NCBI RefSeq assembly: GCF_017948675.1
Contig: NZ_JAGFBU010000001.1
Span: 620,001-684,000 of the forward strand
DNA: 64,000 nt
DNA from: Flavobacterium flabelliforme
GTDB lineage: Bacteria > Bacteroidota > Bacteroidia > Flavobacteriales > Flavobacteriaceae
Reading direction: 5' to 3'
Every line of letters begins with the position of its first letter. The stretch's first letter is position 1. The notes beneath the pieces are model-generated. The model was not told where the DNA came from, ran no database searches, and saw only the letters and a program-made list of their open reading frames with translations. A program made the position numbers and the translations under genes. Of the stretch, positions 55,057 to 60,138 are shown in pieces.

Positions 55057-55305
55057 TTAGCCCACTTTATTCTTTCTCATTCTATAAACAGCATACCCAA
55101 TGCCTCCAACTAAAAGATAAGGAATTGCCATTAAATAAACTATCCCATCGTTAATAGCCTCAGCTTTTGCAGTATTACCTTCGCTAGTTAAGGCAGCACG
55201 ACACATTGCGCACTGTGCATTTGAAGAAACAGAGAAAAGACCGAAAAAAAGAAGACAAAAATAAATTGACCACTTTCTTTTTATATTTTTTGTTTTAATA
55301 TACAT
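55057..55305 (-). CDS. Small membrane protein with a CxxC motif
   Basis: 82 residues: a signal-like N-terminal helix (WSIYFCLLFFGLFSVSSNAQ), then CAMC (CxxC) directly after the likely cleavage site, a short charged stretch and one membrane helix (IVYLMAIPYLLVGGIGYAVY) with a basic tail. Overlaps the DUF420 gene by 11 bases and is last in the SCO1 group. Being exported, next to SCO and DUF420, a role in copper handling or thiol chemistry for oxidase assembly is inferred. No named family recognised. Confidence 0.7.
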   Translation of the reverse strand: MYIKTKNIKRKWSIYFCLLFFGLFSVSSNAQCAMCRAALTSEGNTAKAEAINDGIVYLMAIPYLLVGGIGYAVYRMRKNKVG

Positions 55306-55837
55306 AATAAGGTGAAATCATTAAATAAACTACTACTCCAGTAACAGCAACATATAACCAAATAGGAAATGTAATTCGTGCAATCTTTTTATGCATTTCG
55401 AAATTTTGCGATAATGCCCTCACGTAAGTTATTAATACCATTGGTATAATAGCTATCGACAAAATAATATGAGAGGCTAAGATGAAAAAGTAGATATAAC
55501 GAACAAATCCTAAACCGCCAAATTTTGTAGAATCGGCCGTCATATGATATGCAACATACATCACAAGAAAAGCAACTGACAAAGCAATTGCACCTGTCAT
55601 TAAGCCTTCGTGGAGCTTTTTTTTACCATTCTTAATAGCAACAACTGCAGCGATTAAAAGTAAAGCGGTCAAACCATTAGTAGAGGCATAAATAGGAGGT
55701 AGAAAAGAAAGCGGCGCTACATCAAATCCAAAGTCTTTAAGTTTTACACCAAAAAGGATCGCAACAACAACTGGAATCACAATAGAAACAGCAATAATGA
55801 GGCTATTGTATTTTTGTTCTAATGAATTATTTTTCAT
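55295..55837 (-). CDS. DUF420 (CtaM-like) membrane protein
   Basis: 180 residues with five membrane helices and no soluble domain. The family DUF420 includes CtaM/YozB, needed for cytochrome oxidase assembly in Firmicutes. Histidines line the helices (AYHMTADSTKFGG, LASHIILSIAI, ALSQNFEMHKKIARITFPIWLYVAVTGVVVYLM). Two bases after SCO1 and overlapping the CxxC gene, which supports an oxidase-maturation role. Confidence 0.88.
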   Translation of the reverse strand: MKNNSLEQKYNSLIIAVSIVIPVVVAILFGVKLKDFGFDVAPLSFLPPIYASTNGLTALLLIAAVVAIKNGKKKLHEGLMTGAIALSVAFLVMYVAYHMTADSTKFGGLGFVRYIYFFILASHIILSIAIIPMVLITYVRALSQNFEMHKKIARITFPIWLYVAVTGVVVYLMISPYYVY

Positions 55838-56537: not shown

Positions 56538-57179
56538 TTAAATTTGTCTAGTAGCGTTTTTATTTTTTTTGTAGGCAGCACGATATTCATAAAGAATAAC
56601 TTTAAAATCATCTAACATTTCGTTACTCAACTCAGCTGGATGAAAGGTATTATATCCTTCTTTAGTTCCTTTAACTAATTTTCTACCGCGAAGGTTTCTA
56701 TTTTTATCAATAATATAAACTTTAGAAGTTCCAAGTTTATCGTCTAATTTCTCTACTAATTTTAATTGCGCATAATAGGCTTTAATCTCTTCTGGAGAGG
56801 CAAAAACAAAACGCCATTGAGAAACATCAGTAAACATAGCAAAAGCATCAACTACTTTCTTGGCATCACTTTCTGTTCCTATAGGACAGAGAATAACAAA
56901 TTGAACATCTTTAAATTTATGATAAGTCTGATATATCTTTTGGTTTAAATTAAAAAAATTACCTCTATTTTTTAAAAGTTCAGTTCCTGAAAAACCAAGA
57001 ATAGTCACTTTTCCATTTAAAGTAATTTCCTTACCATCTAAAGTATTCCAATGCCCAAAATCAGCAGTATTAGTAGTTAGGGTTGGCAACTTTGTATATC
57101 CGTTTACACCAGAAGCAAAGAATAAATAAGCTACAATAGGCAAAACAAATAGAACGAAAAGAACAATATTTTTTTTCAT
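56538..57179 (-). CDS. SCO-like thioredoxin-fold protein lacking the cysteine pair
   Basis: 213 residues with an N-terminal membrane helix. Fold order matches the neighbouring SCO1: a strand VTILGFSG aligns with VYVLEFFFS, then a helix, FVILCPIGT, and a SQWRFVFASPEEIKAYY stretch aligning with SNWNFLTGDKDYIF. But where SCO1 has CPTIC, this has TELLK (residues 66-70), so no metal-binding thiols. Starts the maturation group after a terminator. Probably a paralogue with a changed role; function unknown. Confidence 0.8.
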   Translation of the reverse strand: MKKNIVLFVLFVLPIVAYLFFASGVNGYTKLPTLTTNTADFGHWNTLDGKEITLNGKVTILGFSGTELLKNRGNFFNLNQKIYQTYHKFKDVQFVILCPIGTESDAKKVVDAFAMFTDVSQWRFVFASPEEIKAYYAQLKLVEKLDDKLGTSKVYIIDKNRNLRGRKLVKGTKEGYNTFHPAELSNEMLDDFKVILYEYRAAYKKNKNATRQI

Positions 57180-57202: not shown

Positions 57203-57234
57203 TAAAAAAAGGTACCCGCTAGAACGGATACCCT
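57203..57234 (-). terminator. Terminator between subunit IV and the maturation group
   Basis: On the minus strand GGTATCCG pairs with CGGGTACC (one G-U pair) over a six-base loop, followed by seven Ts. It separates coxIV from the downstream genes, so read-through or another promoter must supply those. Confidence 0.85.
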
Positions 57235-57254: not shown

Positions 57255-57605
57255 TTAAAAATTCCATTTAATGGTAGAGTTTTTAAACACCTCATAAATA
57301 TAATCCCCTTCGGTCAAAAGAATAAAGAGTAAATATAAAATCAGAAAAATTACTGGAAAAACAACTGCACTCCTTAAAGTACTTTTTTCACCTTCCATGT
57401 GCATAAATGCCCAAACGATGTAATATGCTTTATAAAGAGTTAGCGCATAAAACACCCAATTAAGAATGTTCATACTCAGAAAATCGTTCATAAAAAGAAA
57501 ATCTGGTTTTACTATTCCTAGATAAACCTCTACTATTGTAACGGCAGACAATATTCCGAAAACCTTCCAGATTCTACCTATGTTAGATACGTGTACGTGT
57601 GACAT
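57255..57605 (-). CDS. Cytochrome c oxidase subunit IV
   Basis: 116 residues from ATG 57605 (MSHVHVSNIGRIW); an upstream in-frame start at 57662 overlaps subunit III and lacks the typical His-rich N-terminus. Three membrane helices (about 15-35, 47-66, 79-110) with AYYIVWAFMHMEGE mid-way, the family pattern of prokaryotic subunit IV (CyoD/CoxD). Accessory subunit of the heme-copper oxidase. Confidence 0.9.
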   Translation of the reverse strand: MSHVHVSNIGRIWKVFGILSAVTIVEVYLGIVKPDFLFMNDFLSMNILNWVFYALTLYKAYYIVWAFMHMEGEKSTLRSAVVFPVIFLILYLLFILLTEGDYIYEVFKNSTIKWNF

Positions 57606-57625: not shown

Positions 57626-58603
57626 TTAAACTAGATAGAAAACAGTAAATACAAATACCCAAACTAAATCGACAAAGTGCCAGTAAAGACCCACTTTCTC
57701 AACCATTTCATAGCTTTTTCTTTTTTCGTAAGTTCCGATAAGAACATTGAAAAATATAATGATATTAATAATAATACCAGAAAAAACGTGGAAACCGTGG
57801 AAACCTGTGATAAAGAAAAAGAAATCAGCAAATAATTTATTTCCATATTCATTTCTGATCAAGTTTGCACCTTCAACAACGTAATGAGCATCGCCCAATC
57901 TTGCTTCAGATTCTTTTCTTGAAAGAATTGTTTTTTGCTTTTCTTTATTCACAACCTCTGTTCTAATCAAAAGTTCTGGATGCGCTTTAAAACCTGCCTG
58001 AACTTCCTCTACAGAGAATGAAGGTAAAGAAGGCTCACTCATAAACCATTTTGCTTTATCTCTAGTAAGTTGCTCTCTTCCTTCTGGCAAAGCAACTGCA
58101 AACTCAGCTAATGCTACACGTTTACCGTCCTTGTCAACAAATTGAAGTAAACTACCCCCTTTTGTCTCAATAGCACCATATTCACCTTTAATAAAGTTTT
58201 TCCATTCCCAGGCTTGAGATCCAACAAAGATTATACCTCCGATAATGGTTAAAAACATGTAAAGCGCTACTTTACCTTTTTTCATTTGATGACCTGCATC
58301 AACAGCTAATACCATTGTTACAGATGAAAAAATCAAAATAAAAGTCATTAATGCAACATAATACATCGGAGCAGATACTCCGTGCATAAACGGGAAGTGA
58401 GTAAACACTTCATCGGCTATAGGCCATGATTCAATAAATTTAAACCTAGAAAAACCATACGCCGCAAGAAACCCTGAGAAAGTTAAAGCATCCGATACGA
58501 TAAAAAACCACATCATCAATTTGCCATAACTAGCCCCCATTGGCTCATTGTTGCCTCCCCAAGTTTTCTCTTCACTATTAGCAGTAGTAACTGTCGATTC
58601 CAT
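57626..58603 (-). CDS. Cytochrome c oxidase subunit III with a long inserted loop
   Basis: 325 residues with seven membrane helices expected for the heme-copper oxidase subunit III. N-terminal MWFFIVSDALTFSGFLAAYGF and the closing FFFFITGFHGFHVFSG, YWHFVDLVWVFVFTVFYLV are clear family marks. Between residues about 138 and 250 lies a polar insert (GAIETKGGSLLQF to VVEGANLIRN) absent from standard subunit III (about 200 residues). 42 bases after the other subunit III gene. Confidence 0.92.
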   Translation of the reverse strand: MESTVTTANSEEKTWGGNNEPMGASYGKLMMWFFIVSDALTFSGFLAAYGFSRFKFIESWPIADEVFTHFPFMHGVSAPMYYVALMTFILIFSSVTMVLAVDAGHQMKKGKVALYMFLTIIGGIIFVGSQAWEWKNFIKGEYGAIETKGGSLLQFVDKDGKRVALAEFAVALPEGREQLTRDKAKWFMSEPSLPSFSVEEVQAGFKAHPELLIRTEVVNKEKQKTILSRKESEARLGDAHYVVEGANLIRNEYGNKLFADFFFFITGFHGFHVFSGIIINIIIFFNVLIGTYEKRKSYEMVEKVGLYWHFVDLVWVFVFTVFYLV

Positions 58604-58645: not shown

Positions 58646-59233
58646 TTATTTAAAGAAATATAAAAATAAAAACAAATAAACCCACAATAAGTCTAGAAAG
58701 TGCCAATACATTGCACCTAGTTCAATTCCAAGGGTTTGAGATGAATTGTATTTTTGTTTAAAATGATTATAAATTATAATTAGAAGTGAAATCATACCAC
58801 CAGCAAGGTGAATCAGGTGCACAACCGTTACAACGTACAAAAAAGTTGTCGTTATTGAACTTCCACTTCCAGTGAAATAATAACCACTATTTACTATTTG
58901 TCCGAAACCTACAAATTGTAAAATTACAAACAAAATTCCAAGAAATAAGGTACTCAAAAGAAAAACTGAAGTTTTACCCTGATCGTCTCTCATTATTGCT
59001 TTTTTAGCCAAATAAAAGGTAACACTACAACCAATAATTGCTGCAGTACTATAATAAAATGCCGAAGGCAACTGAAAGTCTTTCAACCAATCTACTCTTG
59101 ATTTACTTACTACAAAAGCACTTGTAAGCCCTGCAAACATCATCGTCATACTGACCATAGAAAATAGCAAAATCAATTTATATGATCGTGCAGTTCTAGA
59201 TTTCTGTTCATCTGTTGTCATTATCATTTCCAT
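58646..59233 (-). CDS. Cytochrome c oxidase subunit III, short form
   Basis: 195 residues with five or so membrane helices, also of subunit III type: FSMVSMTMMFAGLTSAFVV near the start and IHLAGGMISLL, MYWHFLDLLWVYLFLFLYF at the end. No insert. Start could be ATG 59233 or 59224. Two bases after ctaB. Paired subunit III genes are common in this phylum. Confidence 0.9.
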   Translation of the reverse strand: MEMIMTTDEQKSRTARSYKLILLFSMVSMTMMFAGLTSAFVVSKSRVDWLKDFQLPSAFYYSTAAIIGCSVTFYLAKKAIMRDDQGKTSVFLLSTLFLGILFVILQFVGFGQIVNSGYYFTGSGSSITTTFLYVVTVVHLIHLAGGMISLLIIIYNHFKQKYNSSQTLGIELGAMYWHFLDLLWVYLFLFLYFFK

Positions 59234-59235
59234 AA

Positions 59236-60138
59236 CTATCTTAAAAATTTATCTATTATATAAACCAGTTGCAACAATGTAATATACAAAACACTGACCA
59301 ACATCAATGTACGTGCTGCTTTAGCCGTTCTTAACTTGTACAATCTAAAAGCATAAAATAACATCCATAACCCCAAAATAAGTACTACAACTGCAGCAAC
59401 TGGAGTTATATATAATCGTCCAGTAAATCCTAAAACCGGTAATAAAGACGCTAAAATAAGCCAAATTGTATATAAAATAACCTGCAATGCGGTTCCTTTA
59501 TCTTTTTTTCCTGTTGGTAACATAAAGAAACCTGCCTTCTCATAATCTTCATACAAAAACCAACCTATTGCCCAGAAATGAGGAAATTGCCAAAAAAATT
59601 GAATTAAAAATAATGTACCTGCCTCAATACCAAACTCTCCAGTTGCTGCTACCCAACCTAACATAAAAGGAATAGCTCCAGGAAAAGCACCAACAAAAAC
59701 CGACAAAGAAGTCATGGTTTTTAGCGGAGTATAAACACTAGTGTATAAAAATATTGATATCGCCCCAAACATAGCTGTTTTAGGGTTAATTGTATAAAGA
59801 AGTACTAATCCTATTACTGTTAAAAAACTCGCTACTAACAAAGCGCTCCCTTTAGACATTCTTCCAGAAGGAACAGGACGATTTTTAGTTCTATCCATTA
59901 AGGCATCTAGGTCTTTTTCGATAACCTGATTAAATGCATTTGATGCACCCACCATGCAATAACCTCCAATAGCTAACTTAAACAAAATCATCCAGTTTAA
60001 AGAATGAAGATCGTTTATCCCTAGCATAAATCCAGCTAAAGACGAAAAAACAACACTCACAGCTAGACGCGCTTTAGTGATCTCGCGAAAATCTATATAA
60101 ATGGATTTGAAGGAAAGGGTACTTTTAGTTGCGTTCAA
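59236..60138 (-). CDS. ctaB: Protoheme IX farnesyltransferase (heme O synthase)
   Basis: Adds farnesyl to heme B to make heme O for the oxidase. 300 residues, UbiA-type prenyltransferase with about eight membrane helices. Prenyl-diphosphate site NAFNQVIEKDLDALMDRTKNRP (the NxxxDxxxD and DRTxxRP marks) and the second site region YEDYEKAGF. Opens the cytochrome oxidase unit under a consensus promoter. Gene also called cyoE. Confidence 0.96.
   Translation of the reverse strand: MNATKSTLSFKSIYIDFREITKARLAVSVVFSSLAGFMLGINDLHSLNWMILFKLAIGGYCMVGASNAFNQVIEKDLDALMDRTKNRPVPSGRMSKGSALLVASFLTVIGLVLLYTINPKTAMFGAISIFLYTSVYTPLKTMTSLSVFVGAFPGAIPFMLGWVAATGEFGIEAGTLFLIQFFWQFPHFWAIGWFLYEDYEKAGFFMLPTGKKDKGTALQVILYTIWLILASLLPVLGFTGRLYITPVAAVVVLILGLWMLFYAFRLYKLRTAKAARTLMLVSVLYITLLQLVYIIDKFLR

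Follow-up and report, generated by a model that had tools for sequence, protein, structure and literature searches.

A SCO1 paralogue without a copper site next to canonical SCO1 in the cytochrome oxidase cluster of Flavobacteriaceae: a candidate assembly partner

A SCO paralogue without a metal site is known from plants, where HCC2 (Arabidopsis SCO2), according to the available parts of the sources, lacks the cysteines and the histidine (PMC3971200, PMC5877523, PMC6696091, PMC6307045). As far as the accessible portions of two of these papers go, COX activity stays normal upon loss of HCC2, and HCC2 rescues an oxidative-stress phenotype of yeast (PMC3971200, PMC6307045). In the excerpt available, a 2019 review calls it 'very surprising' that HCC2 complements without the motif, and states that its function needs further research (PMC6696091). 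For bacteria, no description of a metal-less SCO was found in the open-access literature, parts of which were available as excerpts; a genome-based SCO survey (Banci 2007, cited by PMC3971200) could hold one. In its available portion, a paper on the copper genes of Bizionia argentinensis lists SCO proteins with the motif and no motif-less one (PMC11213822), and SCO is absent from the main text of a paper on ACIII and cytochrome aa3 of F. johnsoniae (PMC8552683).

Here, we analysed a window of 64,000 nucleotides from Flavobacterium flabelliforme, in which the gene of a SCO-like protein (hereafter A) directly precedes that of a canonical SCO1/SenC protein (hereafter S). A reading of the sequence alone had regarded a metal-dead copy beside SCO1 as a layout not known to be described. 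This does not hold for the metal-less paralogue as such, which the plants already have, and it stands for bacteria to the extent of the literature named above.

Gene surroundings of A

The cluster runs on the minus strand in the order heme O synthase, two COX3-like subunits, COX4, A, S, DUF420 protein and a small CAMC protein (Table 1), so that cytochrome oxidase genes adjoin the gene of A. Genes about 13 to 16 kb past the end of the window, on the same contig, are read as oxidase subunits I and II. Subunit II of this genome contains CNKICGASHYNM, which we take to be a CuA-type motif. The nearest named relatives are Flavobacterium species.

Table 1 Features of the cox cluster around A, and the operon SCO loci with a broken copper site found elsewhere in the class
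Feature	Position in window	Strand	Basis or remark
Heme O synthase (CyoE/CtaB)	59236..60138	-	Pfam and NCBIfam
Second COX3-like subunit	58646..59233	-	Pfam
COX3-like subunit III, long form	57626..58603	-	Pfam
COX4-like oxidase subunit IV, gene preceding A	57255..57605	-	Pfam
Terminator-like hairpin and T run between COX4 and A	57204..57232	-	Hairpin/T-run scan of the gap; unlisted by a stricter scan
A, SCO paralogue without copper site, 213 aa, N-terminal anchor helix and thioredoxin-like domain	56538..57179	-	ATG start
N-terminal helix of A, residues 2-28, putative membrane anchor	57096..57176	-	Resembles the anchor of other families' operon SCOs
Former copper motif of A, LLKNR, residues 68-72	56964..56978	-	Opposite CPTIC of S
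Gly150 of A	56730..56732	-	Aligned with the ligand His of SCO proteins
C-terminal tail of A, residues 186-205, NEMLDDFKVILYEYRAAYKK	56565..56624	-	Also in other families' operon SCOs
S, canonical SCO1/SenC with CPTIC and ligand His, 228 aa	55840..56526	-	Pfam PF02630, 88.8 bits
DUF420 membrane protein, cluster gene after S	55295..55837	-	Pfam
Small CAMC-motif protein, final gene of cluster	55057..55305	-	
Dead operon SCO loci: L207, L209, L217, L211, L218, L264, L227, L215, L243, L255, L265, L181, L268			

Several other features of the cluster and the genome were observed. The small CAMC protein occurs at the same position in many families of the class; no Pfam family matched it above the family's cut-off, and it is a possible thiol or copper partner. 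The long COX3-like protein has 325 aa, compared with about 230 to 290 aa in most of the relatives listed, and its Pfam COX3 match is split into two stretches. The genome encodes two more SCO proteins, at C10:1039345 (L001, motif CGSIC) and C21:281782 (L003, motif CKAAC), and no cox neighbours were found within these two loci. Flavobacterium-type A genes also turned up on two contigs from metagenome-assembled genomes, titled Lentimicrobium (L059, 75% identity) and Klebsiella pneumoniae (L074, 74% identity), both of which are probably misbinned or mislabelled.

A is a SCO homologue without copper ligands

By direct BLASTP, nothing meaningful links A and S (the best match has E 0.066 and spans 11 residues), and none of the SCO models of Pfam and NCBIfam matches A. 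PF02630 was matched by 0 of 45 A proteins at E <= 0.1 and was absent among the 14 families they did match; the best Pfam match of A, to LPG_synthase_C (E 4.3e-5, below its cut-off and found in 1 of the 45 members), was taken as chance. PDB sequence searches with A returned no SCO. The proposal that A is a SCO1 paralogue was nevertheless borne out by matches to canonical SCOs, by profile-profile alignment and by the predicted fold. With the A protein of the window alone as query (P0001), 16 canonical CPxxC-type SCOs were matched at E 1.8e-8 to 5.9e-5, and 15 of these belong to other families of the order. This search was confined to the frames of loci that had been fetched because P0001 matched there; searched against whole genomes, the same SCO places gave E 1.5e-7 to 9.3e-4. 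When 45 diverse A proteins were made into a profile, it aligned with a profile of 42 S-type proteins over 211 columns, from the anchor to the C-terminus, with a probability of 99.4 and E 2.3e-21.

The AlphaFold model of A (48 sequences, mean pLDDT 77, pTM 0.72) has a long N-terminal helix of residues 2-28, a putative membrane anchor. When this model was compared with known structures by VIA-align, the top five entries were SCO proteins (Z 14.0 to 10.9), among them 4hde (Z 14.0, rmsd 2.9, 151 aligned), 1xzo (Z 12.8, rmsd 2.6, 145 aligned) and yeast Sco1 (Z 11.6). Only 4hde and 1xzo stand clear of Z 10.8, where entries under names other than SCO or electron-transfer protein begin, while yeast and human SCO1 are not clear of other thioredoxin-like proteins at about that value. 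For the S model, 4hde and 1xzo again headed the list (Z 20.1 and 19.1). When the matches to the A model were ranked by Foldseek E-value, the SCO 1xzo came third, and SCO proteins were mixed with other thioredoxin-like proteins; given this ranking, the fold alone would not settle the matter. Together, the SCO matches, the profile alignment and VIA-align rule out that A resembles SCO proteins by chance, as one thioredoxin-like protein may resemble another. A is a genuine SCO homologue, its best structural matches agree with the SCO fold order ascribed to it from the sequence, and a fold different from SCO was not what the comparison returned. The A family is accordingly a SCO group that the Pfam SCO model misses.

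For the copper site, 134 distinct A proteins (80 from the related-locus search, mostly Flavobacterium, and 54 from the genome search) were jointly aligned with 147 distinct S proteins. Six rows had been removed from the A set: three truncated S, one S with CASIC and the two other SCOs of the window genome. The S rows were picked by the pattern C[PS].[IVL]C, so that their cysteines (147/147) are there by construction, whereas their histidines (147/147) are not. None of the 134 A rows has a cysteine at either Cys column, all 134 are without histidine at the ligand column, and CxxC or CxxxC occurs nowhere in them (0/134). At the Cys, Cys and His columns, the commonest residues of A are Leu/Ile/Val, Arg/Lys and Gly/Ser. 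The loss of the copper-binding cysteines, first read from the window alone, thus extends to every relative examined, close relatives included. The earlier wording that TELLK replaces CPTIC is right about the loss and wrong about the position, as CPTIC falls over LLKNR in the joint alignment, two residues further on. With no ligand in any of the 134 rows, both a remnant active site in A and a ligand loss confined to Flavobacterium are ruled out.

Distribution, selection and division of features

A single-sequence search found A in 189 of 199 genomes of the family, the window's own included, and in 160 of the 165 with a completeness of at least 90% and a contamination of no more than 5%. An order-wide search with A matched 71 of 296 genomes. 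Seventeen of the 22 matches outside the family were read: 15 proved to be canonical SCOs, and the two in G207 and G209 represent A beside S. S is the next gene after A in all 139 loci scored, some of which, the window among them, are copies of one place; in 125 of the 139 the two genes are at most 12 bases apart or overlap. A 140th A locus (L012) was recovered with an alternative start codon. In the 15 out-of-family loci without A, COX4 is followed by S with nothing between, and A is inserted at precisely this place.

Subunit II was checked in the ten family genomes without a P0001 match. In four (G023, G116, G140, G146), nothing matched the subunit II of the window genome. The complete genome G128 has a canonical SCO and oxidase genes, with a subunit II that is only remotely related (E 9e-4), and G181, likewise complete, carries a diverged copper-dead copy (E 3.8e-7 against the A profile) and also a diverged subunit II. 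In the last four (G081, G149, G151, G170), which are 66 to 87% complete, subunit II is clear. These checks indicate that complete genomes of the family without A either lack this oxidase or have a diverged one.

Median dN/dS came to 0.052 over 265 A pairs with at least 82% identity and to 0.061 over 125 S pairs. Both sets come from Flavobacterium-type loci only, and their dS is near 1, close to saturation. Judged by these ratios, A is under strong purifying selection. No internal stops occurred in the A matches listed from the family search. In a tree of 83 rows, A forms one clade (support 100/100) and the paired S another (83/90). The suggestion that A has been kept beside S therefore holds, in that the copy is old and under purifying selection; the scaffold or regulatory role attached to that suggestion is compatible with these data and goes beyond them.

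The gap between COX4 and A carries a hairpin of -6 kcal/mol or better with a T run in 125 of 134 A loci, and the stem letters vary among the loci printed. Among 1260 dinucleotide-shuffled versions of these gaps, 41 had such a hairpin and T run. In operons without A, 9 of 79 COX4-SCO gaps had one, and 61 of the 79 are shorter than 40 bases. This suggests that transcription of A may not simply run on from the structural subunit genes, and A and S may form a separately tuned assembly-factor unit.

A and S resemble the operon SCOs of families without A in different regions. Expressed as mean identity to 13 live operon SCOs of such families, with rows chosen by us and in one alignment, A scores 0.33 in the anchor against 0.16 for S, whereas S scores 0.68 in the site loop and 0.36 in the core against 0.04 and 0.16 for A. 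In the tail, A is no closer than S over the shared columns (0.37 vs 0.42), and it covers 21 columns compared with 12 for S, the C-terminus of which ends about nine alignment columns before the tail end of A. As far as such identities can tell, A and S look as they would if a protein with two functions had been duplicated and had divided its work.

Broken copper sites were also found in the operon SCO of 13 further genomes of the class, which span nine family codes (f1, f20, f29, f35, f41, f42, f43, f50, f80). The survey covered 74 of 99 matched genomes plus G181, with nine of the window's family and 16 others left out. Seventeen genomes were first classed as doubtful, and four of these (G516, G543, G546, G711) are live or only degenerate. 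Among the dead copies, those of G536 and G570 each retain one of the two cysteines, and that of G688 is short (174 aa). A live SCO adjoins the dead copy or lies one gene away in G181, G634 and G674. The 12 dead copies in the tree (L209, a near copy of L207, was left out) still show an anchor identity of 0.37. A is the most widespread case of a dead copy among those surveyed. In genus g289 of f35, live, degenerate and dead operon copies occur together, by which some of the losses look recent. Parsimony on the 83-row tree gives 10 live/dead changes, of which well-supported branches force 1 for A and 3 for the rest; several dead rows are long branches, two long-branch joins were flagged and the bootstrap is unsettled. 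The loss of the copper site thus happened on more than one occasion, and other related bacteria seem to have undergone it separately.

Another SCO with CxxxC and His, as read from the sequence, is present in 12 of the 13 dead-copy genomes; in the remaining one (G564, 88% complete) no second canonical SCO was found. Among 58 live-copy genomes, 37 have at least two SCO matches (E <= 1e-20, motifs uninspected), one of the 58 loci (L238 in G632) having no cox neighbour. The association of a dead operon copy with a second SCO (Fisher p 0.052, uncorrected for kinship) is weak and suggestive only. Subunit II carries the CuA motif in the window genome and in 17 of 17 genomes checked, all 13 dead-copy genomes included. 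Loss of CuA in the oxidase is thereby ruled out as the cause of SCO decay, and the oxidase presumably still needs copper.

Possible role of A and comparison with described SCO proteins

On balance, and with a slight leaning in its favour, we infer that A is a copper-free assembly partner of the oxidase that originated by duplication and division of features. The SCO gene of a cox operon would have been duplicated to give A and S, with the ancestral features divided such that S kept the copper/thiol site and the core, and A kept the anchor (and tail) and lost the site. A would then sit in the inner membrane by its anchor, the thioredoxin-like domain presumably facing the periplasm, and would bind an oxidase assembly intermediate, probably on the side of subunit II or III, and/or S. 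The anchor might dock, and the dead domain would offer a binding surface that holds the intermediate in place. Meanwhile S, or a canonical SCO encoded elsewhere, would give copper to the CuA site or reduce it. The core is the most diverged large part of A, and its surface may be doing something new. A broader version, in which the operon SCOs of the class have a second, copper-independent assembly function in or near the anchor, and in which the operon copy, given a second canonical SCO, repeatedly sheds its site and survives as a metal-free assembly factor, is a serious but tentative possibility that we rate somewhat short of even.

Rather than assisting assembly, A could be a lasting accessory subunit of the aa3 oxidase of flavobacteria, or of the supercomplex of this oxidase, but this appears unlikely. 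Its place in the cox operon, the retained anchor, the near-universal presence in the family and the absence where this oxidase type is missing or remote would all suit such a subunit, but A lies on the assembly-factor side of the cluster together with S, after the terminator-like hairpin. No PDB chain convincingly matches A either, yet this is uninformative, since COX4 matches none; the long COX3 and subunit II find PDB matches only to oxidases of distant bacteria.

A role in oxidative or copper stress, independent of oxidase assembly, would follow the precedent of HCC2, the only described SCO of this kind that we found, which by the available parts of the papers is dispensable for COX activity and rescues the yeast phenotype (PMC3971200, PMC6307045). 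We regard this as quite unlikely for A, which stays in the cox cluster in the 139 loci scored; moreover, the five complete genomes without a P0001 match have no, a remote or a diverged subunit II. In addition, the HCC2 data concern a plant protein that is likened to A by its description.

Binding of another cofactor or metal through new residues might explain the strong conservation, including the residues that are invariant in 45 diverse A proteins (Pro14, Gly65, Trp122, Asp158, Arg164-Gly165-Arg166 and Asp191). However, Trp122, Asp158, Arg164, Arg166 and Asp191 (A numbering) are near-invariant in S too and so look structural, 36 of the 134 A proteins are free of cysteine, and the 45 members share no new invariant Cys or His, which makes such a ligand improbable. 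That A is a decaying duplicate without function, as its lost active site and strongly diverged core could be taken to mean, is barely credible given a dN/dS of about 0.05, the intact reading frames of the listed matches and its retention across the family.

The copper-free assembly partner that we favour bears on the question of which role SCO proteins have beyond copper carriage or thiol reduction. In this cluster, two SCO activities appear to be split between two neighbouring bacterial genes, in a group of proteins whose copper site was lost repeatedly.

Compared with described proteins, A shares with the SCO1/SenC/BsSco chaperones (PF02630) the thioredoxin-like fold, the N-terminal helix, the cox context and the near-invariant Trp, Asp, Arg and Asp; unlike them, it is without both cysteines and the ligand His and is unrecognised by the Pfam model. 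With HCC2, going by the available descriptions, it has in common that it is a SCO paralogue without a metal site in a genome that also encodes a canonical SCO (HCC1 in the plant). HCC2 is mitochondrial, and HCC1 and HCC2, by their locus numbers, lie on different chromosomes (AT3G08950, AT4G39740; PMC5877523, in its available part), whereas A sits beside its live paralogue in the cox cluster. The other canonical operon SCOs of the class (e.g. L145, L193) are like A in the slot after COX4, the anchor and the C-terminal tail. They hold these together with CxxxC and His in one protein, whereas in the family of the window the same features are spread over A and S.
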